Shown: positions 6,447 through 59,662 of the stretch, one piece after another
How the letters are laid out: each line of letters begins with the position of its first letter
Position numbering within the stretch: the first letter of the stretch is position 1
From: Bacteroidota bacterium
GTDB taxonomy: Bacteria > Bacteroidota > Bacteroidia > JAFLBG01
Direction: 5' to 3'
NCBI GenBank assembly: GCA_017303975.1
Contig: JAFLBG010000004.1
Span: forward strand, 1-64,000
DNA length: 64,000 nucleotides
Program-made: the position numbers and the translations under genes
Notes under the pieces: model-generated
Database searches by the model: none
What the model was told of the DNA's origin: nothing
The model's input: the letters and a program-made list of their open reading frames with translations, nothing else

Positions 6447-6450
6447 TATT

Positions 6451-6480
6451 AAATAGACAGTTGAAAAGACAACTGACTAA
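6451..6480. repeat. Short hairpin repeat, copy 1
   Basis: AAATAGACAGTTG is followed by a 6-base loop and CAACTG. The hairpin CAGTTG/CAACTG sits at 6458-6475. Nearly the same sequence recurs at 11829-11862, so this is a small dispersed repeat. It lies just after the TonB receptor stop and could also act as a weak 3' end. Confidence 0.5.
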
Positions 6481-6517
6481 ACTAAAAACTATACCTTTAT
6501 GCCTATATTTTAGACAG

Positions 6518-7030
6518 ATGCAACCACTAGTAAAGTACAATTTGCAAATAATTGCTGATAAGATTTATAACCCAAACGACCTTGTTCGTGCTATAGCTGC
6601 TTGGCGTTTAAAAGACAAGAAAATTGTGTTTACCAATGGCTGCTTTGATCTGTTGCATCTTGGGCACATTGATTATTTGAGTAAAGCTGCGGATTTAGGT
6701 GATGTATTAATTGTAGGTGTAAATTCAGACGATAGTGTAAGGCGATTACAGAAAGCTCCATCTAGACCTATTCAAGATGAAAAAAGCAGAAGCACAATTA
6801 TTGCAGCATTACATTTTGTAACTGCTGTAGTAGTTTTTAACGAAGACACTCCCTATGAATTAATAAAACATATTCAGCCGGATGTTTTAGTAAAGGGAGC
6901 TGACTACACTCTAGATAAAGTAGTGGGTAGAGATATTGTTGAAACAAGAGGCGGAAGGGTAGAGTTGATAAACTATTTGGAGGGTTATTCAACAACAAGA
7001 ATTGAGAATAAAATAAAACTAACTAACTAA
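6518..7030 (+). CDS. rfaE2: D-glycero-beta-D-manno-heptose 1-phosphate adenylyltransferase-like protein
   Basis: A stand-alone nucleotidyltransferase of about 170 residues. It has the cytidylyltransferase-fold signature TNGCFDLLHLGHIDYL with the HxGH motif, then VGVNSDDSVRRLQK and KGADYTLDKVVG. This corresponds to the C-terminal half of E. coli HldE, which makes ADP-heptose for lipopolysaccharide core; in this phylum it is usually a separate protein. The frame is open from a TTG at 6461, but those 19 residues run through the hairpin repeat. ATG 6518 is the better start because TACCTTTA, close to the -7 consensus, lies 18 bases before it. Confidence 0.85.
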   Translation: MQPLVKYNLQIIADKIYNPNDLVRAIAAWRLKDKKIVFTNGCFDLLHLGHIDYLSKAADLGDVLIVGVNSDDSVRRLQKAPSRPIQDEKSRSTIIAALHFVTAVVVFNEDTPYELIKHIQPDVLVKGADYTLDKVVGRDIVETRGGRVELINYLEGYSTTRIENKIKLTN

Positions 7031-7219
7031 TGTTATTTCACCCAATCACTTGATTTGAAAAACATCTATAGAGTATTCTGTTGTAAAAAGTGATTACAGC
7101 CCTCGTTCTTTATCTGAATGCGATTGTACAACGTCATTTTTGCGAATAGATTTTAGATGTATAGACTACAAACTACATTAATAAATGTAGAAAGAGGTTT
7201 TGGGAGAAACCTTCATCTT

Positions 7220-7987
7220 TTAAAAATCAATCTCAATCAGCATTGGACAATGATCGGAATGTTTAGCTTCTGGAAGGATTACAGCTCGTTTCAACTTGCT
7301 TTTAAGCGACTCACTTACCAATTGATAATCGATACGCCAACCTAAATTTTTTGCACGTGCATTAGCCCGGAATGTCCACCATGTATAGTGATGTGGATCT
7401 TGATTAAAAACACGAAAGGAATCTACAAAACCACTCTTCATAAAAGTATCAATCCATTCGCGCTCTTCAGGCAAAAATCCGGATGAGTTGGCATTGCTAA
7501 TCGGATTGTGAATATCAATTGGCTTGTGACAAATATTATAATCTCCGGCTATAATTAAATTAGGGCGAGTCTTTTTAAGTTTGTCAATGTATTTTTGAAA
7601 GTCATCTAGCCACACCATTTTAAATGCTTGTCGCTCATCACCACTAGAGCCGGATGGCATGTACACACTCATTACCGATACATCGCCATAATCAACGCGC
7701 AACACGCGACCTTCGGCATCATACTTTTGTATGCCACATCCAACTTCTACATGCGTAGGTTTTTGTTTGCTGAATATGGCAACACCGCTATAGCCCTTTT
7801 TTTCGGCCGAATGCCAGTAGTGTGCGTACCCTAGGTCTTCTAATACTTTGGTATCAATCTGTTCTACATTTGCTTTAATCTCTTGCAAACAAACAATATC
7901 GGGATTTACTGATTTCAACCAATCAATCCAACCTTTGCTCATAGCGGAGCGTATGCCATTTACGTTGTATGTAATTATTTTTTTCAT
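7220..7987 (-). CDS. xth: Exodeoxyribonuclease III (AP endonuclease)
   Basis: A 255-residue protein of the exonuclease/endonuclease/phosphatase family, the usual length for the ExoA/Xth group. Visible motifs: ITYNVNGIR at the N-terminus, CLQEIKA with the metal-binding Glu, AGDYNICHKPIDI with the catalytic Asp and Asn, WWTFR, and the terminal HSDHCPM with the Asp-His pair. It cuts DNA at abasic sites and degrades 3' ends in base-excision repair. It lies 18 bases after a gene of unknown function on the same strand and may be cotranscribed with it. Confidence 0.92.
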   Translation of the reverse strand: MKKIITYNVNGIRSAMSKGWIDWLKSVNPDIVCLQEIKANVEQIDTKVLEDLGYAHYWHSAEKKGYSGVAIFSKQKPTHVEVGCGIQKYDAEGRVLRVDYGDVSVMSVYMPSGSSGDERQAFKMVWLDDFQKYIDKLKKTRPNLIIAGDYNICHKPIDIHNPISNANSSGFLPEEREWIDTFMKSGFVDSFRVFNQDPHHYTWWTFRANARAKNLGWRIDYQLVSESLKSKLKRAVILPEAKHSDHCPMLIEIDF

Positions 7988-8005
7988 CGCGTGTAAAAAT
8001 ATAAA

Positions 8006-9547
8006 TTAATCTTCCGACTTGTACATTTTCTTGTATATATCAAACATCGGTTTGTTGTCAATTTTACTTTTAATCCAAACCAAAATATCAAACTCGTAAA
8101 AGAAATACGACTCGTATCTGTCTTGCCTTTGTTTAGATAAATCTCTATATAAATTTCGGAAAGCATTTTTCGTTAAATCTCCGTTTCTACCTGCACCATG
8201 CCACATAAACTTCAGAATAATTTGTGGACTCGTTTTCTCATTCAACTTTTTCCTATATAGCCACATATAAATTGATTTGGCAAGTGAGCTTATGTAAAAT
8301 ACATCCTTCTCTTCATACCTAATAATTAGTGTAATTATTTTTGCATACAACCCTAAATTAACAGATGAATATTGATGACTATTTTTATTTATTAACCCAA
8401 TCAACTCTTTTACTTTTTTAAATTTGTTTAAATAGAAATAGGACACAAGTAGGGTTAAAAAGAAGTTAGATATAGTTGCCGAATCAATTTTAGCAGAATG
8501 TGTTTTAAGAAAAGCTTTGGCATAGATAATCTGCCTATAACAACTTACCCTACTTTTAAGAGACAGATAGCAAATAAGTTCCTCCGATAAGCACCTAAGC
8601 ATATACCCTTCAAAAGATAAAATATTAAAAGATTCGTTTACATAACAAAGCTGTTTTGTATTCTCTATTATTTGCAACGCTTCGTTTACTCGTTTGTTTT
8701 TAGCTGCAATCTTTGCTAAATTTAACATGCTGGCAATCCGATTTTCCGCCCGGAAGAATGGCGACTCTCCCATTTCAGCATAAACATCAATTTTCTTTTT
8801 CAAATTTATATATGCATTCACAAAATCAAATTTTGCAAACGAAATTGTATACAACAATTGATAATAAACTTCTTTGCTTCTTAAACTGGCGGGTACTTTA
8901 TTTATTTTATAACGAGCCGTAAGCTCGTCAATTTCTTTTGACAATAAATAACTTGGGATTTTGTCGTGAGCAGCATGTGTATCTTGAATTCGAATAGAAA
9001 GATTAAAATAACTATTGATTTCTTGTAGCTCTTGATTAATTGCTTCTGAGGCAGTTAAGACTTCTGCTATTTCATGTGCATATTCCTTATGGCTTCGATG
9101 AGATAACAGTAAATTTTTTTTGATTCGCGTAGAATATGCTAAAAACTCCATAATTGACGATTCCCTACTTCTCTTAATAATTCTATCGCATTGTATTAAT
9201 GCCTCTTCCGGCAGGGACTTAGATTTAAGTATCTCAATATTTTGAAATCCATTTGTAACTTCAAACAAAATACTTTTCTCTGAATTATAATTTCTTAAGG
9301 CTTTTAGAATAAGGTTAGTTAAATACTGTTTTGTTTGAGAAAAATTTTCTTTCTTGATTATTTTAGACAACAACAACTTAAGTTTTTTCTCATCATATTC
9401 ATTTTGTTGCTCAATGGCATCCATTAATTTAATGTAGGTAGGATTATCAGATTGCAGCTTAGCGAATTGCTTTATGTAGCGCTTTTCGCCCTTGTTTAAT
9501 GTTTTAATAATATAGAATAGGTATTTATTATTAAAGTTGGAAACCAT
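8006..9547 (-). CDS. Conserved-type helical-repeat protein of unknown function
   Basis: A 513-residue cytoplasmic protein with no signal peptide or membrane span. It is rich in Lys, Ile and Leu and appears all-alpha. Phrases such as LMDAIEQQNEYDEKKLKLLL, EEALIQCDRIIKRS and INEALQIIENTKQLC-like segments resemble degenerate TPR helices. I do not recognise the family. Its upstream region (9548-9667) is very AT-rich. Divergent transcription from the secreted-protein gene at 9668 suggests a shared promoter region. A scaffold or regulatory role is possible but not shown. Confidence 0.7.
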   Translation of the reverse strand: MVSNFNNKYLFYIIKTLNKGEKRYIKQFAKLQSDNPTYIKLMDAIEQQNEYDEKKLKLLLSKIIKKENFSQTKQYLTNLILKALRNYNSEKSILFEVTNGFQNIEILKSKSLPEEALIQCDRIIKRSRESSIMEFLAYSTRIKKNLLLSHRSHKEYAHEIAEVLTASEAINQELQEINSYFNLSIRIQDTHAAHDKIPSYLLSKEIDELTARYKINKVPASLRSKEVYYQLLYTISFAKFDFVNAYINLKKKIDVYAEMGESPFFRAENRIASMLNLAKIAAKNKRVNEALQIIENTKQLCYVNESFNILSFEGYMLRCLSEELICYLSLKSRVSCYRQIIYAKAFLKTHSAKIDSATISNFFLTLLVSYFYLNKFKKVKELIGLINKNSHQYSSVNLGLYAKIITLIIRYEEKDVFYISSLAKSIYMWLYRKKLNEKTSPQIILKFMWHGAGRNGDLTKNAFRNLYRDLSKQRQDRYESYFFYEFDILVWIKSKIDNKPMFDIYKKMYKSED

Positions 9548-9667
9548 ATTTTTAATATTATAATAATCTAATTTACAATTATTTATATTTAAATAATACG
9601 TATATAATACATATAATTTAAAACAAATGTTAACCAGTATGATGTCAAATTATTACTAGATTCGGCA

Positions 9668-11713
9668 ATGATTTATTTTGCAAAATATTACATCAAACTA
9701 TTCTGTCTATTTTTCTTTCTATCACTCTGTACGAATGTATATGCGCAACCTCCTTATTTTTCTTGGGGTAAATCAGGAGCTGGAGCCGGATCGAACGACC
9801 CTAGCTGGGATGTATCAATAAACAGTAAAGGAAGCATATTCTTCGTTGCTAATTACCTTGACGCAAGCACAGATTTCGACTCCGGAGCTGGCACTGCAAC
9901 ACTTACAGCTGTTGGGGGGAATGATATTGCCGTTGTGAAATACAGCAGTGGCGGTAGCTATACATCTATGTGGGGTATTGGCTCAACAGGAGAAGATACA
10001 GCCAAAAGCATAACGATAGATGGAAACGACAATTTACTAATTGCGGGTACATTTAGTGCTACAGCAGATTTTGACCCAAGCGGCAGCACAGCCAATCTTA
10101 CATCTAATGGTAATTTAGACATTTTCTTTGCAAAGTACGATAGCTCTAGTACCTATTCCTGGGCTTATAATATTGGGTCAACAAGCAAAGATGCTGCTAC
10201 TGCAATTGCTGTAGACGGAAGCAGTAACGTTTATGTAGCAGGGTATTTCCAAGGAACGATGGATCTTGATCCGGGAGCAGGAACATCTACCGTGAGTTGT
10301 GCGGGGGGCACAGATGCATTTGTTGCTAAATACAATAGCAGTGGGGTTTATCAATGGGGGTTTGCAATTGGCGGAACAAGTGGAGACAACATTCTTAGTT
10401 TAGAAATTGATGGTAGCAGCAATGTTCTGGTAAGTGGATATTTTAATGGCACTATCGATTTAGATCCGGGGGTGGGTACTGCAACAGTAACCTCTGCGGG
10501 AGGCGCAGACGCATTCTTGGCCAAATACAATAGCTCCGGAACATATCAATGGGGTGGGAAAATAGGCGGAACCGGTAAAGATGTTGCTCCCGCAATAGAC
10601 CACGATGGTTCAGATAATGTTTATATAACAGGAGAATATACCGGTACAGCCATTGATTTTGATATCGGGGCAGGGTCTTACACATTAACTGCGGCAACCA
10701 TAGGGCAAAGCATGTTTGTAGCAAAATACAACAGTAGCGGAACCATACAATTTGCAAATAGTTTCGGCTGCTCTTCCACTGCATGTACAGCATTTGGATC
10801 TGCTTTGTGTTTAGACGCTAGTGACAATGTATATCTTGGTGGGTCTTTTTCCGGCAGCATTGATTGGGATCCGGGCGCAGGTACAGCGAGCTTAACTGGA
10901 TGTGGATTCATGTGCGGATCCTATGATGGATTAATTGCAAAGTATAATAGCAGCGGAACTTATCAGTGGGCGGCAAAGTTCGGATACAACCCCACAGAGT
11001 CTGTTGTTGCTATGAAAATAGACCTTTCCGGCAATCCCGTTTTTACAGGTAATTTTACTGGAGGAATGGATATTGACCCTACTACAGGATCTACTACTAT
11101 AGTAACGGGTGCGCCCGGTCACCTAGTCGCTAAATGGACAACAGGAAATCCTTTACCTATAGAGCTTTTAGAATTTAACGCTCGATCCGTTGAAAACAAA
11201 GAGGTTGAGCTTACCTGGACCACAACATCCGAAACAAACAACAGTTACTTTACAATTGAGCGCAGCAAAGATGCCGAGGCTTTCGAATCTATAGCAACGA
11301 TAGTAGGTGCAGGAAACTCAAACTCTCTAAAAAACTATCAATTCACCGACAAAAGCCCTTACAAAGGGGTTTCCTACTACCGCTTAAAACAAACCGATTT
11401 TGATGGCAAAGAAGAAAGCTTTGAAATAAAAAGCGTAGAGCTGTTCGAAACCGATTTTTCCATTACCTGCAATAACCCTGTAAACATTGAAGAATTTGAC
11501 TGTACAACAAGTATAGAAAAAGGAAAAAAAATGGAAATTACTTTTACAGACATGTATGGTCGAATTGTTTATTCATCTATCAAGAAATATGAAGAGATAC
11601 AAGATGCTTGGCAAGAGATTAAACAATCTAAAGTAACTTCTGGAATATACTTGCTTTCTGTAAATTCAGATACGAGAACAAATTCTTTAAAAATTGTAAT
11701 TACAGCTAATTAA
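9668..11713 (+). CDS. SBBP-type beta-propeller protein with T9SS sorting tail
   Basis: A 681-residue protein with a signal peptide (cut near NVYAQ). Residues about 30-490 contain about nine repeats of the form DxDPGAGTxxxTxxGGxDxFxAKYxSSGxYxWA, the SBBP (seven-bladed beta-propeller) type. The Asp-rich DFDPG loops could bind calcium. A PLPIELLEFNA ... YYRLKQTDFDGK module (residues about 497-590) follows, which often precedes T9SS tails in this phylum. The last 85 residues resemble a divergent type A sorting domain (MYGRIVYSS ... SGIYLLSV). It is a paralogue of the larger protein at 27719-31360. The function is unknown; a surface adhesin or binding role is possible. Confidence 0.82.
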   Translation: MIYFAKYYIKLFCLFFFLSLCTNVYAQPPYFSWGKSGAGAGSNDPSWDVSINSKGSIFFVANYLDASTDFDSGAGTATLTAVGGNDIAVVKYSSGGSYTSMWGIGSTGEDTAKSITIDGNDNLLIAGTFSATADFDPSGSTANLTSNGNLDIFFAKYDSSSTYSWAYNIGSTSKDAATAIAVDGSSNVYVAGYFQGTMDLDPGAGTSTVSCAGGTDAFVAKYNSSGVYQWGFAIGGTSGDNILSLEIDGSSNVLVSGYFNGTIDLDPGVGTATVTSAGGADAFLAKYNSSGTYQWGGKIGGTGKDVAPAIDHDGSDNVYITGEYTGTAIDFDIGAGSYTLTAATIGQSMFVAKYNSSGTIQFANSFGCSSTACTAFGSALCLDASDNVYLGGSFSGSIDWDPGAGTASLTGCGFMCGSYDGLIAKYNSSGTYQWAAKFGYNPTESVVAMKIDLSGNPVFTGNFTGGMDIDPTTGSTTIVTGAPGHLVAKWTTGNPLPIELLEFNARSVENKEVELTWTTTSETNNSYFTIERSKDAEAFESIATIVGAGNSNSLKNYQFTDKSPYKGVSYYRLKQTDFDGKEESFEIKSVELFETDFSITCNNPVNIEEFDCTTSIEKGKKMEITFTDMYGRIVYSSIKKYEEIQDAWQEIKQSKVTSGIYLLSVNSDTRTNSLKIVITAN

Positions 11714-45246: not shown

Positions 45247-46928
<1,682 letters not shown>

Positions 46929-49293: not shown

Positions 49294-49584
49294 ATGAATT
49301 CACTCGGAGAAATTTTTCGAAAAGAAAGGGAAAAAAGAAATCTATTATTAAGACAGGTAGCTGGTTCAATCGATATGGATCAGGCAGTACTTAGTAAGAT
49401 AGAAAGGGATGAAAGAAAACCAACAAAGCAGCAATTGATAGAGTTGGTTAAATTTTATAAGCTAGACGAAAAAGAAATAATGGTTGAGTGGAATAGCCAA
49501 AAGCTTGTAAAACAACTTAAAAGCGAAGAGTATGCTATTGAAATTTTAAATCAATCGATTAAAAAATTGAAATCTAAAAAATAA
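49294..49584 (+). CDS. XRE-family regulator of the defence operon
   Basis: About 96 residues from ATG 49294, 29 bases after the -7 box. LGEIFRKEREKRNLLLRQVAGSIDMDQAVLSKIERDERKPT (residues 3-44) is a Cro/CI-type helix-turn-helix with a dimerising helical tail. It is followed after 3 bases by the PLD-helicase gene, so it heads that operon. The palindrome over its promoter indicates negative autoregulation, as in controller proteins of restriction-modification systems. It could also gate the timing of the methylase and nuclease partners. Confidence 0.85.
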   Translation: MNSLGEIFRKEREKRNLLLRQVAGSIDMDQAVLSKIERDERKPTKQQLIELVKFYKLDEKEIMVEWNSQKLVKQLKSEEYAIEILNQSIKKLKSKK

Positions 49585-49587
49585 GTA

Positions 49588-52500
49588 ATGACTCAAGAAA
49601 CTATAAATAAAATACATACTGATCTTACTTTTTTTACCAATGAAGAAGGTCAAACCTTGCTCGACCGTTTTAGAACAACGTTAAAGGATACTCAATATTT
49701 TGATGTTTTGGTTGGTTACTTTCGTTCTAGCGGATTTTATCAATTATACGAATCAATAGAGCCAATAGATAAAGTCCGTATTCTAGTGGGACTTGGGGTA
49801 GATGAAGATGCCTATAAAACAATAAATCAATATCAAACACAAACTATGTTTGATTTTGAATCCCATCATAATGCAAAAAAAGAATTTCAAAAGAATTTAA
49901 TAAATGAGATTGAGAACTCTAGAGAGATCGATGAAAGATTGGAAATTGGGTTACGACATTTCATAGATTTTTTGCAAGCGGATTGTTCTAATACTGAACA
50001 AGACAAAAAAAATGGTGGCAATGGTAAAAAACTTGAAATTAAAGCTTATCCTTCAAAAAATATTCATGCAAAAGTTTATATCAGTAGATATAAAGAAAAT
50101 ATAAGTCATATCCAATATGGTTCTGTTATTACGGGTTCGAGTAATTTTTCATTAAACGGTCTTGTTGCTAATAGAGAGTTCAATGTTCACTTAAAAGATA
50201 GACGTGATATTGAGTATGCCTTGAATCAATTTGAAACATTATGGAAAGACTCCATTGATATTTCTGATGAGTTTGTTGATTCGGTAAAGAACAAAACATG
50301 GCTCAACGATTCTATAAAACCTTATGAACTTTATCTAAAGCTTATTTACGAGTACTTACAGGAAGATATTAATCTTCAGGATAAATATGAATCATTTCTA
50401 CCTGATGGGTTTATGAAACTAGACTATCAAGAACAAGCAGTAATTCAGGCTTTGAAAAAATTGGAAGAGTATAATGGAGTATTTCTTGCTGACGTTGTTG
50501 GTCTCGGTAAAACATTTATAACAGCGCAACTCCTACAACAATTGAGGGGTAGAATACTTGTGATCTGCCCTCCTGTTCTACAAGACTATTGGAAAGAGAG
50601 TTTACTTGAATTCCGAGTGCCAGCAGAAGTTGAATCACTTGGTAAACTGGAAAGTATAATTCAGAAGGGAATAGAAAAATACGATTATGTAGTTGTTGAT
50701 GAAGCGCATAGATTTAGAAATGAAGCTACTCAATCTTATGCTGATCTGTTAGATATTTGTAGAGGTAAAAAAGTAGTTTTGGTTACAGCAACACCATTAA
50801 ATAATACTATTGACGATATTTTTTCTCAGCTAAAACTATTTCAAGCACCAAAGAATTCAACCATTCCGGGTGTTCCTAATTTAGTGTCCTTCTTTAATAA
50901 ATTAAAAAAGAAGTTGGATGAGTTTAAACCTAAAATCTATAAAGATGATAAGGGAGCTGTTTACAGACTACGTGAGGAGGAAGATGCTTATAAAAAAGCC
51001 ATCAAAGAGGTTTCTAATGAAATCAAAGATAAAGTTCTAAAACATGTAATGGTTAGAAGGACAAGGAAAGATGTAGTAAATTATTTTAAAAACGATATAA
51101 AAAACCAAGGCATTGTATTTCCTGAAGTTCAAGACCCGAGTAAGATTGTTTATTATTTTAAAGGAAAAACGGAAACTGTTTTTAATTCAACAATACAATT
51201 ACTTCAAAGTTTTAAGTATTCAAGATACATACCCTTGACCTACTATATAGGCAACAAAGGTTTAAGTGCATTTGAACTTCAGCAACAAAGAAACGTTGGA
51301 GGCTTTATGAAAGGAATATTGGTAAAGCGTTTAGAAAGTAGTTTTTTCGCTTTTAAACAAAGTGTAGATCGTTTTATTGATTCCTATAATAATTTCATTG
51401 CAATGTATAATCAGGGAACTGTATACATTAGTAAGAAAGTAAATGTATATGATTTATTAGACAATGATGATTTTGAAAAATTAGAGAAGTATGTTGAAGA
51501 GGAAAAGGCGCATAAATACGATTCTAAAGATTTCAGAAAAGATTTTATTACAGATTTAGAACATGACTTAGAAACACTTAAAGAAATAAAGAAGAATTGG
51601 GCGGCAATAAACGATGATCCGAAACTTGAACAGTTTGTTGCTGATTTAAAAAGTAATAAAAGCCTTAAGAAGCAAAAACTTGTTGTATTTACTGAATCAA
51701 AAGAAACTGGGGATTATATTTTTGAAAAATTAATCTCTGAATTTCCTGGAGAAGTTATGTTTTATTCAAGTAAGGGAGGACGACATTCGGATAGTAAGTT
51801 AGTTTCAAAACATAATATTTCTCGTGAAATAATTAAGAATAATTTCGATCCAACTCAAAAAGATAAATCTGATGATATACGGATTTTGATTACTACAGAT
51901 GTTTTGGCGGAGGGCATAAACTTACATCGATCAAACTGTTTAATTAACTACGACCTGCCTTGGAATCCAACAAGAGTGTTACAAAGGGTTGGGCGCGTTA
52001 ACCGTTTGGGAACAAAACATCCTGAAGTGTTTATATACAACTTTTTTCCTACAACACAATCAGATGAACATTTGGGATTAGAACAAAATATCACAAACAA
52101 AATTCAAATGTTTCATGACATTTTGGGAGAAGATGCCAAGTATCTTTCTGATGGAGAAGAAATAGGAAGCCAAGAATTATTTGATACTTTAAATAATAAG
52201 AAGTCATACACCGGAGAAGATGAAGATGGAGATTCCGAACTTAAATATTTGGAGTTAATTAGAAAAATAAGAGATAAAAATCCGGATCTATTTGAAAAAA
52301 TTAAAACCCTACCTAAAAAAGCTCGTTCCGGTTTTGAAACAACTAAAATTGAATCTGATCAATTAGTCACATTTTTCAGATTAGGTAAACTAAAAAAGTT
52401 TTATTTGAATGTAAATACTGAATCAAATGAAATAACCTTTTTTGATGCTGTAAAAATACTTGAATGTGATCCTAATACTGAAAGAAATAAAATACCGTCA

Positions 52501-52887
52501 AAACAGTACTTCCAAAAATTAGATATAAATAGAGCTAGGTTTGAATTAGACTCAACTATTTCGGATGACGATGAAGGAAGTGGAGGAAGATCAAATTTAA
52601 AATATATAGAGACTAGATTAAAAGATAAAACTTTTAAAAACTGTAAGCAGTTTACCGATAGTGATGAAGAGTTTATTAATGGTGTGAAATTTATGTTATC
52701 TCAAGGAAGCTTGGCAAAAAAGACCGCTCAAGCAATTAAAAAGGAATTTGAAAAGGTATTAGACCCCTTGCAAATGCTTGGCATACTGAGGAAACACATT
52801 AGAACTATTGTTGCGGAAGAAAATCAGCATGGAGGAAGTTTTACTAAAAGAGAAGTTATTTTATCAGGATATTTGACTAAGGCATAA
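49588..52887 (+). CDS. Helicase with N-terminal phospholipase D-like nuclease domain
   Basis: A 1099-residue protein. Residues about 10-235 are a PLD-like domain with the catalytic HxK (IHAKVYISRYK, near 160) and GSSN (ITGSSNFSLNGL). Residues about 275-860 are an SF2/SNF2-like helicase: Walker A VVGLGKTF near 305, DEAH (VVVDEAHRF) near 370, VTATPLNN, and motif VI QRVGRVNRLG near 800. An acidic C-terminal region follows. Combined nuclease-helicase proteins occur in anti-phage systems. It overlaps the methylase gene by 1 base. It may sense and cut foreign DNA. Confidence 0.88.
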   Translation: MTQETINKIHTDLTFFTNEEGQTLLDRFRTTLKDTQYFDVLVGYFRSSGFYQLYESIEPIDKVRILVGLGVDEDAYKTINQYQTQTMFDFESHHNAKKEFQKNLINEIENSREIDERLEIGLRHFIDFLQADCSNTEQDKKNGGNGKKLEIKAYPSKNIHAKVYISRYKENISHIQYGSVITGSSNFSLNGLVANREFNVHLKDRRDIEYALNQFETLWKDSIDISDEFVDSVKNKTWLNDSIKPYELYLKLIYEYLQEDINLQDKYESFLPDGFMKLDYQEQAVIQALKKLEEYNGVFLADVVGLGKTFITAQLLQQLRGRILVICPPVLQDYWKESLLEFRVPAEVESLGKLESIIQKGIEKYDYVVVDEAHRFRNEATQSYADLLDICRGKKVVLVTATPLNNTIDDIFSQLKLFQAPKNSTIPGVPNLVSFFNKLKKKLDEFKPKIYKDDKGAVYRLREEEDAYKKAIKEVSNEIKDKVLKHVMVRRTRKDVVNYFKNDIKNQGIVFPEVQDPSKIVYYFKGKTETVFNSTIQLLQSFKYSRYIPLTYYIGNKGLSAFELQQQRNVGGFMKGILVKRLESSFFAFKQSVDRFIDSYNNFIAMYNQGTVYISKKVNVYDLLDNDDFEKLEKYVEEEKAHKYDSKDFRKDFITDLEHDLETLKEIKKNWAAINDDPKLEQFVADLKSNKSLKKQKLVVFTESKETGDYIFEKLISEFPGEVMFYSSKGGRHSDSKLVSKHNISREIIKNNFDPTQKDKSDDIRILITTDVLAEGINLHRSNCLINYDLPWNPTRVLQRVGRVNRLGTKHPEVFIYNFFPTTQSDEHLGLEQNITNKIQMFHDILGEDAKYLSDGEEIGSQELFDTLNNKKSYTGEDEDGDSELKYLELIRKIRDKNPDLFEKIKTLPKKARSGFETTKIESDQLVTFFRLGKLKKFYLNVNTESNEITFFDAVKILECDPNTERNKIPSKQYFQKLDINRARFELDSTISDDDEGSGGRSNLKYIETRLKDKTFKNCKQFTDSDEEFINGVKFMLSQGSLAKKTAQAIKKEFEKVLDPLQMLGILRKHIRTIVAEENQHGGSFTKREVILSGYLTKA

Positions 52888-55800
52888 TGGAAAAAAAAGA
52901 AGCTACACAACTTATCGAAAAGACCTTTAATGCAAGGTTTGATTTAGAACAATTTACTTTCTTCCTAAAAAACTTGTTAAATGATTACGATGAGCAAAAG
53001 GAAAGAGATTGGGCTCAAGGAAATTACATATATGAGTCGTTTAGGGAGCATATCAATCGATTTAAACGATTAGGTATCTACACCGACCCAGAAGGAAACG
53101 AAATGGAACTTTTAGTTATTGAAACTAAAGCGACTTCAAAGCTAGAAAAAGCAAGAACTTCATTGAGAAATTTTGTTATAAAAAGACTTAATGATAAAGG
53201 CAGAGATTACGCACTTGCCGCCTTTTATAGCAGGGATGATAATGGTGCAGACTGGAGGTTCTCTTTTATTAAGATTGAACATGAAAGCTTTAGAGATCAA
53301 AAAGGAAAAATTAAAACAAAAAAGGAACTGACTCCTGCAAAGCGTTACAGTTTTCTCGTTGGTGAACATGAGCAAGCACATACTGCTCAGAAGCAACTAT
53401 TACCAGTCCTACAAAACACATACAGTAAGCCGTCCCTTGAAGATCTTGAAGGCTGCTTTAGTATAGAAAAAGTTACGGATGAATTCTTTGATCAGTATAA
53501 GGATTTATATATTAAGCTATCCGAACATTTCGAGAATGATGAACTTGTACAAAAAGTTATTAAAGATGCCGAAATTGAAACGGCTCGCTTTACAAAGAAA
53601 CTTTTAGGGCAAATTGTTTTCTTATATTTCTTGCAAAAAAAAGGGTGGCTTGGCGTTCCTAAAAATGAGCCATGGGGAAAAGGTGAGAAAAAGTTTGTTC
53701 AGAAATTATTTGATGATGCAAGCAAAAAAGAGAAAAATTTCTTTAATGATTATTTGAAATTTCTTTTTTACGAAGCTCTTGCTAAAGGACGAACAAAAAG
53801 TCCAGATCCTGCCTATTATAAAAGATTTGACTGTAAAATTCCATTTTTAAATGGAGGATTATTTGAGGCGGACTATGACTGGGAAAATGTTCAAATCGTT
53901 ATTCCAAATGAATTATTTAGGAATGAGGAAAAGAATAAAAATGGGGATAAAGGAACGGGGGTTCTGGATGTTTTTGATAGGTATAATTTTACTATTAAAG
54001 AGGATGAGCCACTTGAAAAGGAAGTCGCAGTTGACCCTGAAATGCTTGGAAAAGTATTTGAAAATATGTTGGAGATAAAAGAGAGAAAAAGCAAAGGAGC
54101 CTTTTATACTCCAAGAGAGATTGTACATTATATGTGTCAAGAAAGCTTGATACAATATCTTTTTAATTCAATAAATGATGATCAGGAAAGCTATCAGGCT
54201 TTAGGTGAAGATCAACTTGCAATATTTAGGGGTTCTAATAATAAAAAGGGGCAATCAAAACTTGAGATAGAACATTACGCAAAAAATTTGGTATCAAAAG
54301 AAGATATTGAAGTATTCATCCGAAAAGGATTTTTAGCAACAGAAAATGACACTACAATTATTGAAAAAGGCAAAGAAACCAGTAGCTATAAATTTCAATT
54401 ACCTGAATCAATAAGAGTTAATGCTGATATTATAGACAATAGAATTACAACCATTAAGATTTGTGACCCCTCTATTGGTTCAGGAGCTTTTCCTGTTGGG
54501 TTATTACATGAATTAGTTACTGCACAAAAGGTCTTGTTACCATATTTAAGTAAAGATTATTTAGTTTCAAAACTGAGTGAAATAGAACTTGATTATGAAG
54601 ATTATAAAGAAGACAATTCTAAATATATCTATCGTGTTAAAAGACACACTATTCAAGAAAGTATATATGGAGTTGATATAGATGCGTCAGCAATTGATAT
54701 TGCTCGTCTGCGCTTGTGGTTAAGTTTAATTGTTGACGAGGATGATTTTTATAGCATTGAGGCTCTTCCAAATTTAGATTATAAAATCATTAAGGGTAAT
54801 AGTATAATTGGTTTGCCTGAAAAAAATCTTGTAGACGATGATGCAACAAAAAAATTAGAAGTTTTAAAGGATGAATTTTTTGGTTTAACTGATGAAACAA
54901 GGAAAAAGCAACTTAGGAAAAACATTAATAATGAAATCAATAGAATATTATCAACGAGTGAAGAATTTACTGGAATAGTGATTGACTTTGATTTCAGGTT
55001 ATTCTTTTCTGAAGTTTGGCATAAGAAAAATGGTTTTGACATTGTAATTGGTAACCCGCCTTATATCTCGTATTATGGAAATAATGGACAAGAAATTACT
55101 GATTTAACAAAGAGTTATTTTAAAAATAATTATGATCATGTTATTAAAACGAATGATAGAATTAACAGCATGAATCTATTGACAGAAAAGGGGCTTAAAC
55201 TTCTTAATAAAAAGGGGTTCTTATCCTTTATTACAAATAAAACTCTTGCAGTATTGCCTTCCTATATTAACCTTAGAGAATATCTCTTGAAAAATTATTC
55301 CATTGATTTTATTGTAACTAATCTAGATCCTTTTGAGGCAATTGTTGATTGTGTTGTGTTTGGCATTAATAAAGAAAAGAAATCAACTAAACTAAAATAC
55401 TTTAAGGGACAGCTAACAGATTCAAAGTTAATCTCACAAATTGATTTTCAAAAGAATGGTAAACTTGAATTTCATGTAGGTGATAATAAAGAATTAATAG
55501 ATAAAATAGAAATTCATAAAAATAAATTGGAGGATATCCTCACTGTTAATAGGGGAGTAAATATTGGCGGGTGTTCAGAATACTTTTTGTCAAAAGAAAA
55601 GAAAGTTGGTTATTATCCTTATTTGGCTGGAACAAAGAATATTAAAAAATTTTCTTACAAACTAGATCCAGAGGATGGTTATTTTATTTTTGATTTAGAA
55701 CGAGAAAAGCAATTAAGAGATAGTGGGGCAACAATTGTTTTAGGAAACCCTGAGCGATATATTCAGCCTCATTTATTTATTCCTGAATCCGGTCAAACAA

Positions 55801-56357
55801 TTATGTCAGCTATATGTTTAGATCAAATTTATGGATCATACGGTTTATTAGTAGGCACATCTGATGATTTAAGTAATTTGAAATTATGCTGCGCGATTTT
55901 AAATAGTGAAATAATAAGTTATTATGCAATAGAAAAGGAGATTTTAAGAAAAGGAAATAAGGCTACCCCGCATGTCGGAGTTCGAGGACTCAACAGCATA
56001 CCTATACCTGTTTTCTCTGAGAAGGCAGTTGATATACTAGTTAATTTGGTTGACTATATTGTTTTTCTTAAAAGTGTTGATGAAAGAAAAATAGAAATTT
56101 CCTTTTTTGAAGCATTGTTAAATTCAATTATCTACGAATCATATTTCAGTAAAGAAATTGAAATGGTAAATAAACATTTAATTAAACATATACCGAAATT
56201 AAATAAAATAGATACCTCTTTGAATGACGAAGGGAATATGAAAATTATCACATCTGTATTTAACAAATTGTACGATCCTAATCATGTAGTAAGAAATAAT
56301 TTGGAAACATTAGATAGCATAGAAGAAATCAGAATTATTAAAGATTTTTTTAAATGA
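52887..56357 (+). CDS. Eco57I-type DNA adenine methylase with N-terminal nuclease-like domain
   Basis: A 1156-residue protein. Residues about 525-535 hold motif I (KICDPSIGSGAF) and NPPY (VIGNPPYISYY) lies near 722: the N6-adenine methyltransferase core of the Eco57I family. The C-terminal third (NRGVNIGGCSEYFL ... YYPYLAGTKNIKKF) resembles a target-recognition domain. In the N-terminus GNEMELLVIETKATSKLEKARTSLRNFV is like a PD-(D/E)xK nuclease strand, as in type IIG enzymes, but the full catalytic set was not seen. It overlaps the helicase and ATPase genes by 1 and 4 bases, so all are cotranslated. Confidence 0.87.
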   Translation: MEKKEATQLIEKTFNARFDLEQFTFFLKNLLNDYDEQKERDWAQGNYIYESFREHINRFKRLGIYTDPEGNEMELLVIETKATSKLEKARTSLRNFVIKRLNDKGRDYALAAFYSRDDNGADWRFSFIKIEHESFRDQKGKIKTKKELTPAKRYSFLVGEHEQAHTAQKQLLPVLQNTYSKPSLEDLEGCFSIEKVTDEFFDQYKDLYIKLSEHFENDELVQKVIKDAEIETARFTKKLLGQIVFLYFLQKKGWLGVPKNEPWGKGEKKFVQKLFDDASKKEKNFFNDYLKFLFYEALAKGRTKSPDPAYYKRFDCKIPFLNGGLFEADYDWENVQIVIPNELFRNEEKNKNGDKGTGVLDVFDRYNFTIKEDEPLEKEVAVDPEMLGKVFENMLEIKERKSKGAFYTPREIVHYMCQESLIQYLFNSINDDQESYQALGEDQLAIFRGSNNKKGQSKLEIEHYAKNLVSKEDIEVFIRKGFLATENDTTIIEKGKETSSYKFQLPESIRVNADIIDNRITTIKICDPSIGSGAFPVGLLHELVTAQKVLLPYLSKDYLVSKLSEIELDYEDYKEDNSKYIYRVKRHTIQESIYGVDIDASAIDIARLRLWLSLIVDEDDFYSIEALPNLDYKIIKGNSIIGLPEKNLVDDDATKKLEVLKDEFFGLTDETRKKQLRKNINNEINRILSTSEEFTGIVIDFDFRLFFSEVWHKKNGFDIVIGNPPYISYYGNNGQEITDLTKSYFKNNYDHVIKTNDRINSMNLLTEKGLKLLNKKGFLSFITNKTLAVLPSYINLREYLLKNYSIDFIVTNLDPFEAIVDCVVFGINKEKKSTKLKYFKGQLTDSKLISQIDFQKNGKLEFHVGDNKELIDKIEIHKNKLEDILTVNRGVNIGGCSEYFLSKEKKVGYYPYLAGTKNIKKFSYKLDPEDGYFIFDLEREKQLRDSGATIVLGNPERYIQPHLFIPESGQTIMSAICLDQIYGSYGLLVGTSDDLSNLKLCCAILNSEIISYYAIEKEILRKGNKATPHVGVRGLNSIPIPVFSEKAVDILVNLVDYIVFLKSVDERKIEISFFEALLNSIIYESYFSKEIEMVNKHLIKHIPKLNKIDTSLNDEGNMKIITSVFNKLYDPNHVVRNNLETLDSIEEIRIIKDFFK

Positions 56358-57871
56358 AAATTAAGACAATAGAAATAAACAATTATAAGGCGTTTTATAA
56401 AAAACACTCATTTGACATAGGTAGTAAAAATGTTTTTGTCTATGGTGAAAATGGAAGTGGCAAAAGTTCTTTATATTATGCGCTAAAAGACTTCTTTCAA
56501 TCTTCAAGAGAAGATATAGATTTTGATGAACTCGAAAATATTTTCATAAATAAGAATGAGCGTGGTAAAGGCTATATTAAGGTCACATTTAATCCGGATA
56601 AAGATGGAAATCTTGTTGATAAAGCTTACTTATTTAGCAAAAAGAAAAAGGACACATATTCGCCAACTGATAATAGTATACGTGATGCAATAGGTTTAAA
56701 GAGTTTTTTAACTTATAAGCACCTGTTGGGAATACATAATATTAAAAAAGGACAGGAAATTGATCTATTTGATTTGTTGGTAAAGGGGGTTCTAAAACAC
56801 TTTAGGAGTACAGTTATCACAGGTGGTAGAGAGTTAGGTGAACTTTGGGATAATGTAGAATTTTCATGCAAAAAGGAGCTGGATGGGAACAAATACAAAA
56901 TGGCCAATAAGAAGAATGATGTTGAAAAAGCAATAGGCTCTTTTAATAAGGCGTTCCGGGAATTATTCAAAGATAGTAGTGCTGATAATATTAATAAGGT
57001 AGCTCAACCTATTTTGGATGAGTTTAAACATGGAATAAGATTCAAACTCTTTTATAAAGAAACAAAACCTAATGCCGAATTTAATGGATACTTAAACAAC
57101 AATGTATCGATAAAACTTTATTATCTCGAAAAGGAAATAAGTGAACCACATTTATTTCTAAATGAAGCTAGACTTTCTGCTATTGCCATTTCTATTTATC
57201 TCGGTATGGTTAAAAGACATCCTCAATTAAACATCAAATCAAAAATACTTTTTTTGGATGATATTTTTATTGGATTAGACATAGCTAATCGTTTACCACT
57301 TTTTGATATACTTGAGAATCATTTTTCTGATTATCAGAAATTTATTACCACTTATGATAAACCTTGGTATGAATATATGAAGTTTTATTTAGAAAAGAAC
57401 TCTTCTTGGAAAACAATCGAATTATATAGTAGGCGTACTAGAAAGGGATTTGAACAGCCTGTAATGATTTATGGAAATGACAAGCAAAGCGGGAGTCATA
57501 TTTCAAGGTTCATCACTCAAGCAGAGGATTACTATAATCAAGGGGATAACAAAGCCGCAGGTGTTTATCTGCGATCTGCATTTGAATTTATTTTAAAAAG
57601 ATATTGTTTGTCAAAAGCATTGCCTGTTTCCTTTAAGCTTTCCATCTCAGATTTAAATACTGATAATTTTTGGATTGCAATCAAGGATTATAAAAATGCA
57701 TATCCAACAAGGTGTAACTTAACTCCTGCAACGACTTCAAATATTGAAAGCTTCAGAAAACTGGTTTTAAACCCACTAAGTCACCATGACATAAACAAGC
57801 ACGAGATTTCATCTGAAATAATAAGTGCAATTGGAGTTATTAGAACATTAAGAACTGAATTGAACGTCTAA
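56354..57871 (+). CDS. SMC/RecF-like ATPase with helical C-terminal domain
   Basis: A 505-residue protein. Walker A GENGSGKSS near residue 32 and an ABC-type signature region (EARLSAIAISIYLG) with Walker B ILFLDDIFIGLD near 298 define a RecF/SMC-like ATPase, as in OLD or defence ATPases. Residues about 375-505 (SHISRFITQAEDYYNQGDNKAAGVYLRSAFEFILKRYC ... LVLNPLSHHD) are helical and HEPN-like, but the canonical RX4-6H spacing is not seen. It overlaps the methylase gene by 4 bases, completing the helicase-methylase-ATPase trio. Confidence 0.85.
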   Translation: MKIKTIEINNYKAFYKKHSFDIGSKNVFVYGENGSGKSSLYYALKDFFQSSREDIDFDELENIFINKNERGKGYIKVTFNPDKDGNLVDKAYLFSKKKKDTYSPTDNSIRDAIGLKSFLTYKHLLGIHNIKKGQEIDLFDLLVKGVLKHFRSTVITGGRELGELWDNVEFSCKKELDGNKYKMANKKNDVEKAIGSFNKAFRELFKDSSADNINKVAQPILDEFKHGIRFKLFYKETKPNAEFNGYLNNNVSIKLYYLEKEISEPHLFLNEARLSAIAISIYLGMVKRHPQLNIKSKILFLDDIFIGLDIANRLPLFDILENHFSDYQKFITTYDKPWYEYMKFYLEKNSSWKTIELYSRRTRKGFEQPVMIYGNDKQSGSHISRFITQAEDYYNQGDNKAAGVYLRSAFEFILKRYCLSKALPVSFKLSISDLNTDNFWIAIKDYKNAYPTRCNLTPATTSNIESFRKLVLNPLSHHDINKHEISSEIISAIGVIRTLRTELNV

Positions 57872-57960: not shown

Positions 57961-58845
57961 GTGTATTATAGAAGAAAAGTCATATTAGCCCTTTTAGAGT
58001 CTTTTAATGGAGAATTAGGTAAAATTTCCTTCCAAAAATTACTCTTTTTATTTACCAAGCATCAGGAGAAACCTGCGTTTGATTTTGTTCCATACAAACA
58101 AGGATGCTTTTCTTTCCAGTCTTATGCTGATATGCGCACTATGATGAAATATGGAATGGTGGCGGAAGAAAAGGAAAAGTGGACAAAGACAGATAAAACA
58201 AATTACACATCTACACTTACCGCTAAAGACAAGCAAACATTACTTTATATCAAAAACAAGTTTGGTAAAGCTTCAAGCGATGATTTAATAGAATTTACGT
58301 ATAAGAATTATCCTTACTACGCTTTCAAAAGCACTATTTCAAAGAAGTTTTTAAGTACTGAAGAATTGAAGACAGTTGCCAAAACCGTACCTGCAAATGA
58401 TGATACAATTCTTTATACTATTGGATACGAAGGTATAAGTCTTGAGCAGTATTTAAACAAACTCATTCTTAACAATGTTAAGGTGCTTTGTGATGTAAGG
58501 AAAAATCCACTGAGCATGAAGTATGGTTTTTCAAAGAGTCAATTACAAAAAGCTTGCGAAAACCTTGATATAAAATACATTCATATTCCGGATCTTGGTA
58601 TAGATTCAGATAAACGTCAAAGTCTAAATACTCAAAACGATTACGATCGTTTATTTAAAGAATATGAAAAGACTACGCTAGTAGCAAAGAAATCAACAGT
58701 TCATCAGGTACTTGATATTTTAAAAGAGAATGATAGAGTTGCATTAACTTGCTTTGAAGCTCACCAATGCCAATGCCATAGAGGAACTTTAGCTAAAGCG
58801 ATTACACATTTGCCCGAATGGAAGTATGAATTAAAACATCTGTAA
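57961..58845 (+). CDS. DUF488-domain protein with N-terminal helix-turn-helix-like domain
   Basis: A 294-residue protein starting at GTG. Residues about 150-290 are DUF488 (YTIGYEGISLEQYLNKL, LCDVRKNPLSMKYGF, YIHIPDLGI, and the CFEAHQCQCHRG end, with three Cys and two His, perhaps binding metal). Residues 1-140 (KISFQKLLFLFTKHQEKP ... YKQGCFSFQSYADMRTMM) resemble a winged-helix module seen beside some antitoxin-like proteins (Panacea group), a guess from pattern only. DUF488 has no firmly established activity. It has its own promoter and is followed after 1 base by the next gene. Confidence 0.78.
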   Translation: MYYRRKVILALLESFNGELGKISFQKLLFLFTKHQEKPAFDFVPYKQGCFSFQSYADMRTMMKYGMVAEEKEKWTKTDKTNYTSTLTAKDKQTLLYIKNKFGKASSDDLIEFTYKNYPYYAFKSTISKKFLSTEELKTVAKTVPANDDTILYTIGYEGISLEQYLNKLILNNVKVLCDVRKNPLSMKYGFSKSQLQKACENLDIKYIHIPDLGIDSDKRQSLNTQNDYDRLFKEYEKTTLVAKKSTVHQVLDILKENDRVALTCFEAHQCQCHRGTLAKAITHLPEWKYELKHL

Positions 58846-58846
58846 A

Positions 58847-59662
58847 ATGGCACTTACAAAAGTTTTAATTACAGTAAAAACCTATCCAACCTTATCAGCT
58901 AAATATGAGGAGTTGGTTTGTACTGCCGGATTTAGGGAAGATGGCACGTGGATTAGAATTTACCCTGTTCAGTTCCGAAAAAAGGCTTACCATGAGCAAT
59001 ATGGTAAATACCAATGGATTGAAATTGACTTGGTAAAAAACGATAGTGATTTTCGTCCGGAGAGTTACAGACCTATTACACACGATACAGAAATTAAGAT
59101 TATCGGAAGTATACCCACTGATGGTGATGCTTGGATGGAAAGAAGAAAATTTGTCTTAAATAAGGTTTACTTCAGCCTTACAGAGTTAATTGCTGAAGCA
59201 AAAGACAGAAATATAGAAACTTCATTAGCTGTTTTTAAGCCAACTAAAGTATTGGATTTTATATGGGAATCCGTTGATCGGGAGTGGGATGAGAAAAAAC
59301 TTGCAGTTCTTCGACAGTATAACTTATTTGAACCTGATGCCGAAAACAGACTAGAAGTAGTAAAAAAATTGCCTTACAAATTCTCCTATGTTTTTTCTGA
59401 TAACCAAGGAAAAGAAAGTACAATAATGATTGAAGATTGGGAGGTCGGTGCTTTGTTTTGGAATATGCTTAAAAAACTTGGTAATGAAGAAGAGGCTTGC
59501 AAAGCTGTAAAAGCTAAGTATTTTGATGATTTTGCGATGACTAAAGATTTACATTTTTACTTAGGCACTTCTGCTCAATTCCACTTGGTTGCTCCAAATC
59601 CTTTCTTAATTATTGGTACGTTCCACCCTAAGAAAATTACTCAAGCTACCCTTGATTTTTAA
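58847..59662 (+). CDS. Unrecognised 271-residue partner of the DUF488 protein
   Basis: A 271-residue soluble protein I do not recognise. The N-terminal ALTKVLITVKTYPTLSAKYEELVCTAGFREDGTWIRIYPVQFRKK looks beta-rich; KEST...EDWEVGALFWNMLKKLG and KDLHFYLGTSAQFHLVAPNPFLIIGTFHPKK end it. It follows the DUF488 gene by 1 base, so the two probably act together. No signal peptide, membrane helix or known catalytic motif is visible. It converges with the 193-residue gene, sharing 4 bases. Confidence 0.7.
   Translation: MALTKVLITVKTYPTLSAKYEELVCTAGFREDGTWIRIYPVQFRKKAYHEQYGKYQWIEIDLVKNDSDFRPESYRPITHDTEIKIIGSIPTDGDAWMERRKFVLNKVYFSLTELIAEAKDRNIETSLAVFKPTKVLDFIWESVDREWDEKKLAVLRQYNLFEPDAENRLEVVKKLPYKFSYVFSDNQGKESTIMIEDWEVGALFWNMLKKLGNEEEACKAVKAKYFDDFAMTKDLHFYLGTSAQFHLVAPNPFLIIGTFHPKKITQATLDF

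Follow-up and report, generated by a model that had tools for sequence, protein, structure and literature searches.

A 64,000-nucleotide stretch of a Bacteroidota genome (contig JAFLBG010000004.1, positions 1 to 64,000; the window) contains a four-gene operon for an XRE-family regulator (XRE), a nuclease-helicase (HEL), a methylase (MT), and an SMC/RecF-head ATPase (ATP). The coordinates and domains of the four proteins are collected in Table 1. A first-pass annotation made from the letters alone had described a near-overlapping operon of an XRE regulator, a PLD-helicase, an Eco57I-like methylase, and an SMC/RecF-like ATPase, and its coordinates were confirmed; all four genes are on the + strand and have the Pfam domains of Table 1. 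The gap between XRE and HEL is three bases, HEL and MT overlap by one base, and MT and ATP overlap by four bases (ATGA). The four open reading frames contain no internal stops and align end to end with their relatives, so there is no sign of a frameshift. The Walker A, DEAH, HxK, and NPPY motifs were all found in the window proteins; neither a frameshift nor a lost catalytic residue, which the annotation had left to be checked, was seen. The start of XRE is supported by relatives located just 5′ of HEL, which are 96-99 residues long in loci L017, L064, L072, and L044 and 93 residues long in L035. Promoter and terminator scans of the locus performed no better than shuffled sequences. The XRE-HEL-MT-ATP operon is real and intact.

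Relatives were first gathered by a class-level search with ATP, in which 5 of 295 genomes matched, and from plasmid matches. Five of the loci obtained in this way contain HEL, MT, and ATP in order. A total of 80 loci was subsequently obtained when GTDB contigs were scanned with the ATP alignment. HEL, MT, and ATP are found in the same order and on the same strand in 36 of the 61 ATP loci for which the sequence 5′ of ATP exceeds 8 kb, and the grouping of these genes is therefore not due to chance. The proposal that helicase, methylase, and ATPase act as a set, originally drawn from translational coupling, is strengthened by this conserved order. For 19 further loci of the 61, a protein with TPR repeats and a target-recognition domain (TRD) is encoded directly 5′ of ATP, and five of these loci have a separate MT further upstream, as read from the locus tables. 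MT and ATP occur with no helicase found in three loci, and the remaining loci are odd or empty. Members are spread over about ten phyla, including Bacteroidota, Chlorobiota, Pseudomonadota, Thermodesulfobacteriota, Planctomycetota, Cyanobacteriota, Acidobacteriota, Chloroflexota, Latescibacterota, and others, and some relatives are found in viral contigs. Searches in the order and family of the window genome returned only the window genome itself.

Table 1. Features of the operon, of its flank, and of related loci (positions in related loci are preceded by the locus number)
Feature	Position	Strand	Evidence
XRE, XRE-family helix-turn-helix (HTH) regulator, 96 aa, probable operon control protein	49294-49584	+	HTH_3 E 2.2e-9; homologue just 5′ of HEL in L017, L035, L044, L064, L072
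HEL, HKD/PLD nuclease and SNF2 translocase, 1099 aa	49588-52887	+	PLDc_2, SNF2-rel_dom, Helicase_C; phrog_26785 E 2e-201; best PADLOC match C3a139 "HKD+Snf2" E 6.8e-54
HKD signature of HEL: H160xK162, GSSN 183-186, N195xE197xN199	50065-50184	+	Conservation in relatives
SNF2 motor of HEL, aa ~281-860: DVVGLGKT, DEAH, TATP, QRxGRxxR	50428-52167	+	Motor residues invariant in the family
MT, Eco57I-type (gamma) adenine-N6 methylase and specificity subunit, 1156 aa	52887-56357	+	Eco57I E 4.3e-27; TaqI_C E 1.7e-9; PADLOC type IIG PDLC03596 E 2.4e-191
MT catalytic core, aa ~380-830: motif X (FYTP), motif I DPSIGSGAF, motif IV NPPY	54024-55376	+	At least 90% conserved in 64 relatives
MT TRD, aa ~830-1050, hypervariable	55374-56036	+	7-30% identity between MTs with cores 80-100% identical
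MT C-terminal tail, aa ~1086-1156, ~70 residues, proposed ATP-docking element	56142-56354	+	Co-occurrence and co-variation with ATP; shared with TIR/FRG-TPR-TRD proteins
ATP, SMC/RecF-head ATPase without long coiled coil, 505 aa	56354-57871	+	SMC_N E 1e-12; fold match; Walker A/B invariant
ATP C-terminal helical domain, HEPN/DUF4145-like (tentative): R407, E411, N473, H477	57497-57868	+	Conservation, weak profile similarity
tRNA-Met	45247-45322	+	ARAGORN
Large serine recombinase gene, 3′ end overlapping tRNA-Met	45279-46928	-	Resolvase and Recombinase domains
TIR-TPR or FRG-TPR proteins with a C-terminal TaqI-like TRD and MT-type tail, then ATP	L040, L043, L047, L048, L050, L052, L053, L055, L058, L059, L060, L065, L069, L088, about 6200-11500 in each		
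Schlafen/AlbA_2-like insertions	L024:8190-9656, L032:8411-9877, L036:6835-7293, L096:5075-6574, L012:7066-8460		By eye
Second TRD and inverted repeats	L099:13705-15515, L106:15714-17492, L111:15637-17335		Repeats of 291 nt at 98%, 101-111 nt at 95-100%, and 304 nt at 88%

Catalytic domains and the C-terminal tail of MT

Invariant catalytic residues are found in HEL, MT, and ATP. Residues H160, K162, G183-N186, E197, and N199 of HEL are the same in all 46 three-gene and all 11 two-gene systems compared, and the single exception among the motor residues is a conservative T309S substitution in one two-gene member. At the sequence level, HEL appears to carry the translocase-plus-nuclease feature of type I/ISP-like restriction-modification (R-M) systems. 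Nuclease-like domains had been noticed initially at the N-termini of both HEL and MT. The assignment for HEL is supported by the invariant HKD residues, whereas a second nuclease at the N-terminus of MT was rejected: the ExK-like residues E79 and K81 are present in just 28 and 32 of 64 relatives, respectively, and vary among the closest ones, and a model of this region (predicted local distance difference test, pLDDT, of 85) gave no match to PDB folds at E ≤ 1e-3. With no supported nuclease at the N-terminus of MT, the cutting activity would, judged by sequence, fall to HEL.

The match of MT to PADLOC model PDLC03596 (REase_MTase_IIG) spans residues 1-837, and an E value of 2.8e-18 was obtained with the NCBIfam model BREX_1_MTaseX (PglX core). 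The methylation target of MT is presumably adenine. When closely related MTs are compared (for example, L051/L039 and L019/L072), the identity drops sharply from the core to the TRD (Table 1) and returns to about 60-70% at the C-terminus. For the pair L051/L039, the identity is 84-100% over most of the N-terminal region and catalytic core, 17-29% in the TRD, and 70% at the C-terminus. Replacement of the TRD is the usual mark of R-M specificity. Since the TRD is swapped while its flanks stay alike, MT was assigned as the specificity subunit, and the alignments indicate that the exchangeable TRD, a feature of type I/ISP-like R-M systems, is present in MT. HEL and the MT core diverge together (Spearman ρ of 0.82), which argues that HEL and MT form one machine and a tight unit.

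The Pfam matches of ATP are SMC_N, AAA_15, and AAA_23. The AlphaFold2 model of ATP has a mean pLDDT of 90 and contains no long coiled coil, and a Foldseek search with this model identified the heads of SMC1A, Rad50, and RecF with a best E value of 8e-12. In the C-terminal helical domain, R407, E411, and N473 are found in 81 of 81 ATP relatives and H477 in 80 of 81. Matches to DUF4145, a HEPN-type family, are weak and occur in 20 of 60 relatives, and the weak profile match aligns the same residues. The usual HEPN Rx4-6H arginine is not conserved, the motif in ATP being L/M-N-P-x-S-H, and the assignment of this domain as HEPN is a weak one.

The new feature of this operon is a tail of about 70 residues at the C-terminus of MT (consensus HPVRxNLxxLDSxxxVRII) that goes with ATP and co-varies with it. 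Among 64 full-length MTs, tail and ATP are both present for 49 and both absent for 13, two have ATP only, and none has the tail only. This table is cleaner than an earlier count of tail absence (34/35), which took in split genes and distant homologues. The MTs without ATP end soon after a generic type IIG-like ending. Across locus pairs, which are not independent of one another, the co-variation of tail and ATP has a ρ of 0.69 and a partial ρ of 0.66 given the MT core (0 of 2000 permutations as high), and the partial ρ for the MT core and ATP given the tail is 0.07. The correlation of the tail is higher with the ATPase head (0.71) than with the C-terminal domain of ATP (0.39). From the co-occurrence and co-variation, we infer that the MT tail is the docking site of ATP.

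Two further arrangements of the tail were observed. In Desulfonema magnum (L085:5020-10001), a tail-less MT is followed by a lone protein consisting of TRD and tail and then by ATP; the tail can thus move from MT onto a separate subunit. At L212:9248-13501, a tail-bearing MT with no ATP is followed by three proteins that, judged by eye from their sequences, resemble a metallo-beta-lactamase-fold protein, a SIR2 protein, and a HerA ATPase.

Proposed mechanism and comparison with known systems

The operon probably, though by no means certainly, encodes a split, translocating R-M system of the type I/ISP-like kind in which an ATPase is built onto the specificity subunit. Such a system would be an R-M system of a new build, and its function is presumably anti-phage; in the literature searched, anti-phage activity is reported for no member. 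In the proposed mechanism, MT would read a short DNA sequence through its variable TRD and methylate an adenine there in the host DNA. Where MT encounters an unmodified site, HEL would be recruited or released, move along the DNA, and cut with its HKD site, as type I and type ISP enzymes do. ATP would dock on the MT tail and, through its ATP cycle, either permit the change from methylation to cleavage or hold the enzyme clamped to foreign DNA. Expression is probably kept low by XRE until methylation is established. The tail, predicted to bind the ATPase, provides a testable element and suggests how SMC/RecF-like ATPases attach to DNA readers in immunity.

Several findings weigh against this mechanism. 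The substrate of the HKD nuclease may not be invading DNA. Extra genes are inserted between MT and ATP in several loci, so the overlap of MT and ATP in the window is not universal. Eleven two-gene loci contain HEL and MT without ATP, which indicates that ATP is dispensable for some such restriction units. The tie of ATP to the HEL/MT lineage is loose (ρ of only 0.24-0.28), and ATP is thus regarded as a third part with its own history. On the well-supported branches of the MT tree, three independent contrasts are concordant and none discordant, an underpowered comparison (p of 0.25). A search with the tail alone identified eight previously unseen tail loci, two of which (L211 and L212) have no ATP within 4.5 kb, and ATP occurs without a detectable tail in L083 and L168.

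In an alternative reading, HEL and MT are a restriction system complete by themselves, and ATP is a separate second-line effector for which the tail and TRD of MT serve only as a sensor. Upon the triggering or failure of restriction, the HEPN-like C-terminal domain would act as an RNase and stop or kill the cell. The HEL-MT pairs without ATP and the decoupling of ATP from their lineage speak for this alternative, as do the (near-)invariant residues R407, E411, N473, and H477 with their weak DUF4145/HEPN similarity. The same ATP also serves TIR proteins (below), which commonly are suicide effectors. The missing HEPN arginine, the weakness of the DUF4145 similarity, and the closer co-variation of the tail with the ATPase head than with the proposed effector domain all speak against it, and a separate effector role for ATP is considered unlikely.

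The split R-M system favored here was also compared with conventional R-M enzymes. In the type ISP enzymes, the nuclease is coupled to the motor (PMC7049714), and LlaBIII and LlaGI combine an SF2 motor, a nuclease, a gamma adenine methylase, and a TRD in one translocating machine (PMC7049714, PMC4872093). These enzymes are single polypeptides, whereas in the operon the parts are divided between two, the nuclease is an HKD domain joined to an SNF2 motor, and the SMC-like ATPase and the MT tail are additional. Type IIG enzymes resemble MT as gamma-class methylases with a C-terminal TRD (Eco57I, TaqI_C) and carry an N-terminal PD-(D/E)xK nuclease in the same chain, but no such conserved site is found in MT and cutting is assigned to the separate HEL. 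An ordinary type IIG or type ISP enzyme with unrelated neighbor genes would account for the PADLOC label of MT and for TRD swaps of the ordinary R-M kind. It is highly improbable given that MT has no nuclease site, that HEL and the MT core co-diverge, and that the three-gene order recurs in many phyla.

A reversed use of methylation, in which MT marks invading or replicating DNA and HEL and ATP attack the marked DNA by BREX/Pgl-like logic, is very doubtful as well. In its favor, the core of MT is shared with PglX, and in the published description of Pgl the DNA of phage progeny is marked and then restricted at a later stage (PMC3710099). No match to PglZ, BrxC/PglY, or another BREX protein was found in the operon or among the neighbors scanned, and the swapping of the TRD fits site-specific R-M.

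The annotation had likened the operon to Hma, which was named after its helicase, methylase, and ATPase (PMC8565338) and later defined by the DUF499 ATPase HmaC (PMC12839542). The three activities are the same in the operon, and type-2 BREX-related helicases carry an N-terminal HKD domain on an SNF2 helicase (PMC12839542). Membership in this DUF499-centered, BREX-related group is nevertheless extremely improbable, since the Pfam scan of ATP gave no DUF499 match, its fold is that of an SMC/Rad50/RecF head, and HmaA, seventh in the list, matches only the generic motor core of HEL (residues 546-810, E 1.6e-25). A DUF3780 gene, found in the type-2 form of Hma, was not matched among the nine neighboring proteins scanned with Pfam. 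In the PADLOC comparison suggested in the annotation, the best label was type IIG for MT and HKD+Snf2 for HEL.

Other named systems share parts of the operon. An SNF2/RapA-like helicase (DrmD, E 1e-41 for HEL) beside a PglX/DrmMI-like methylase is reminiscent of DISARM class I and ARMADA (PMC12458937), but the operon has no YprA-type helicase or DrmA/B/C, and HKD is fused to the SNF2 helicase. Among the matches listed for the operon and its neighbors, DISARM models are matched only by HEL (DrmD-like, and by DrmA over the motor core) and by MT (DrmMI-like). ARMADA requires a YprA-family helicase (PMC12458937), and the single helicase of the operon is of the SNF2 type. In CxC-ABC/PbeABCD, an HKD+SF2 helicase works with an ABC-type ATPase and sometimes a methylase (PMC10853773), but the ATPase there has a zinc-hook coiled coil, the partner is DndE, and the methylases are cytosine methylases, in contrast to the 505-residue head and adenine-type methylase of the operon. 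The ATP model has no long coiled coil, and no DndE match was found among the proteins scanned. ATP is weakly similar to the MAD3 ATPase of MADS, the methylation-linked defense system (PADLOC mad3, E 1.6e-12), and the NCBIfam model antiphage_MADS3 scored 15.3 bits against a curated cutoff of 420. No named system that combines an HKD-SNF2 protein, an Eco57I methylase, and an SMC-like ATPase, and no TIR-TaqI_C fusion, was found in the literature searched, outside of which lies the 2020 ABC-ATPase classification. Neither the profile libraries nor the literature searched give a separate name to this three-gene restriction-like system of about ten phyla.

Relatives that share the TRD and tail

In Poribacteria, Latescibacterota, and Gemmatimonadota, the gene 5′ of ATP encodes a protein that ends in an MT-type TRD and tail and has no methylase core. 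TPR repeats were found in 19 of the 22 such proteins scanned, a TIR domain in 10, and an FRG domain in some. The TIR domains keep a C-N-x-E-L-like stretch, which in our reading resembles what would be expected to surround the NADase glutamate. Lone proteins with TRD and tail are found in Nostoc and Desulfonema. The TPR-TRD group falls within the HEL-MT-ATP loci on the ATP tree, where it is placed beside a Latescibacterial HEL-MT-ATP locus, and a change of effector from an R-M ancestor is therefore the simplest reading. The TIR/FRG-TPR-TRD proteins with ATP are a candidate immune system whose DNA reader is of the restriction type.

It is plausible, though rather short of probable, that the TaqI-like TRD, the tail, and the SMC/RecF-head ATPase form a portable sensor of DNA sequence, and perhaps of methylation, that is wired to different effectors: the HKD-SNF2 motor and methylase in one case and TIR-TPR or FRG-TPR proteins in the other. 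Such a sensor would define a family of immune systems that trigger an effector other than restriction through a restriction-type DNA reader, and use of the same reader by the TIR/FRG relatives would link restriction-modification with abortive infection.

Additional genes were observed in related loci. Schlafen/AlbA_2-like proteins, recognized by eye, recur as insertions on either side of MT, separating it from HEL or from ATP. In L099, L106, and L111, which are two-gene HEL-MT loci from viral contigs, a second TRD is located on the opposite strand between long inverted repeats (Table 1), and this arrangement suggests an invertible (phase-variable) target specificity.

Genomic context

The operon is located to the right of the tRNA-Met/recombinase pair. 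In a second genome (G043), a recombinase that is 59% identical (L178:8058-9705) overlaps a tRNA-Leu beside the same operon, and this recurrent arrangement looks like a mobile element. The tRNA-Met and recombinase probably mark the left boundary of the element on which the operon resides, and the window and G043 share this type of tRNA-targeting element. No exact repeat of tRNA-Met of at least 13 bp that could serve as the right-hand attachment site was found up to position 80000. Two genes 3′ of ATP (57961-59662) match PADLOC PDC-M19A (DUF488, SocA-like N-terminus) and PDC-M19B over their full lengths, with E values of 2.8e-128 and 1.5e-124, respectively, and are likely a second defense module. 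No homologue of this pair was found in any related locus examined, and the pair is therefore treated as a separate neighbor rather than as part of the operon. The GC content is 0.29-0.34 across the operon, compared with 0.34-0.40 in most of the nearby flanks.

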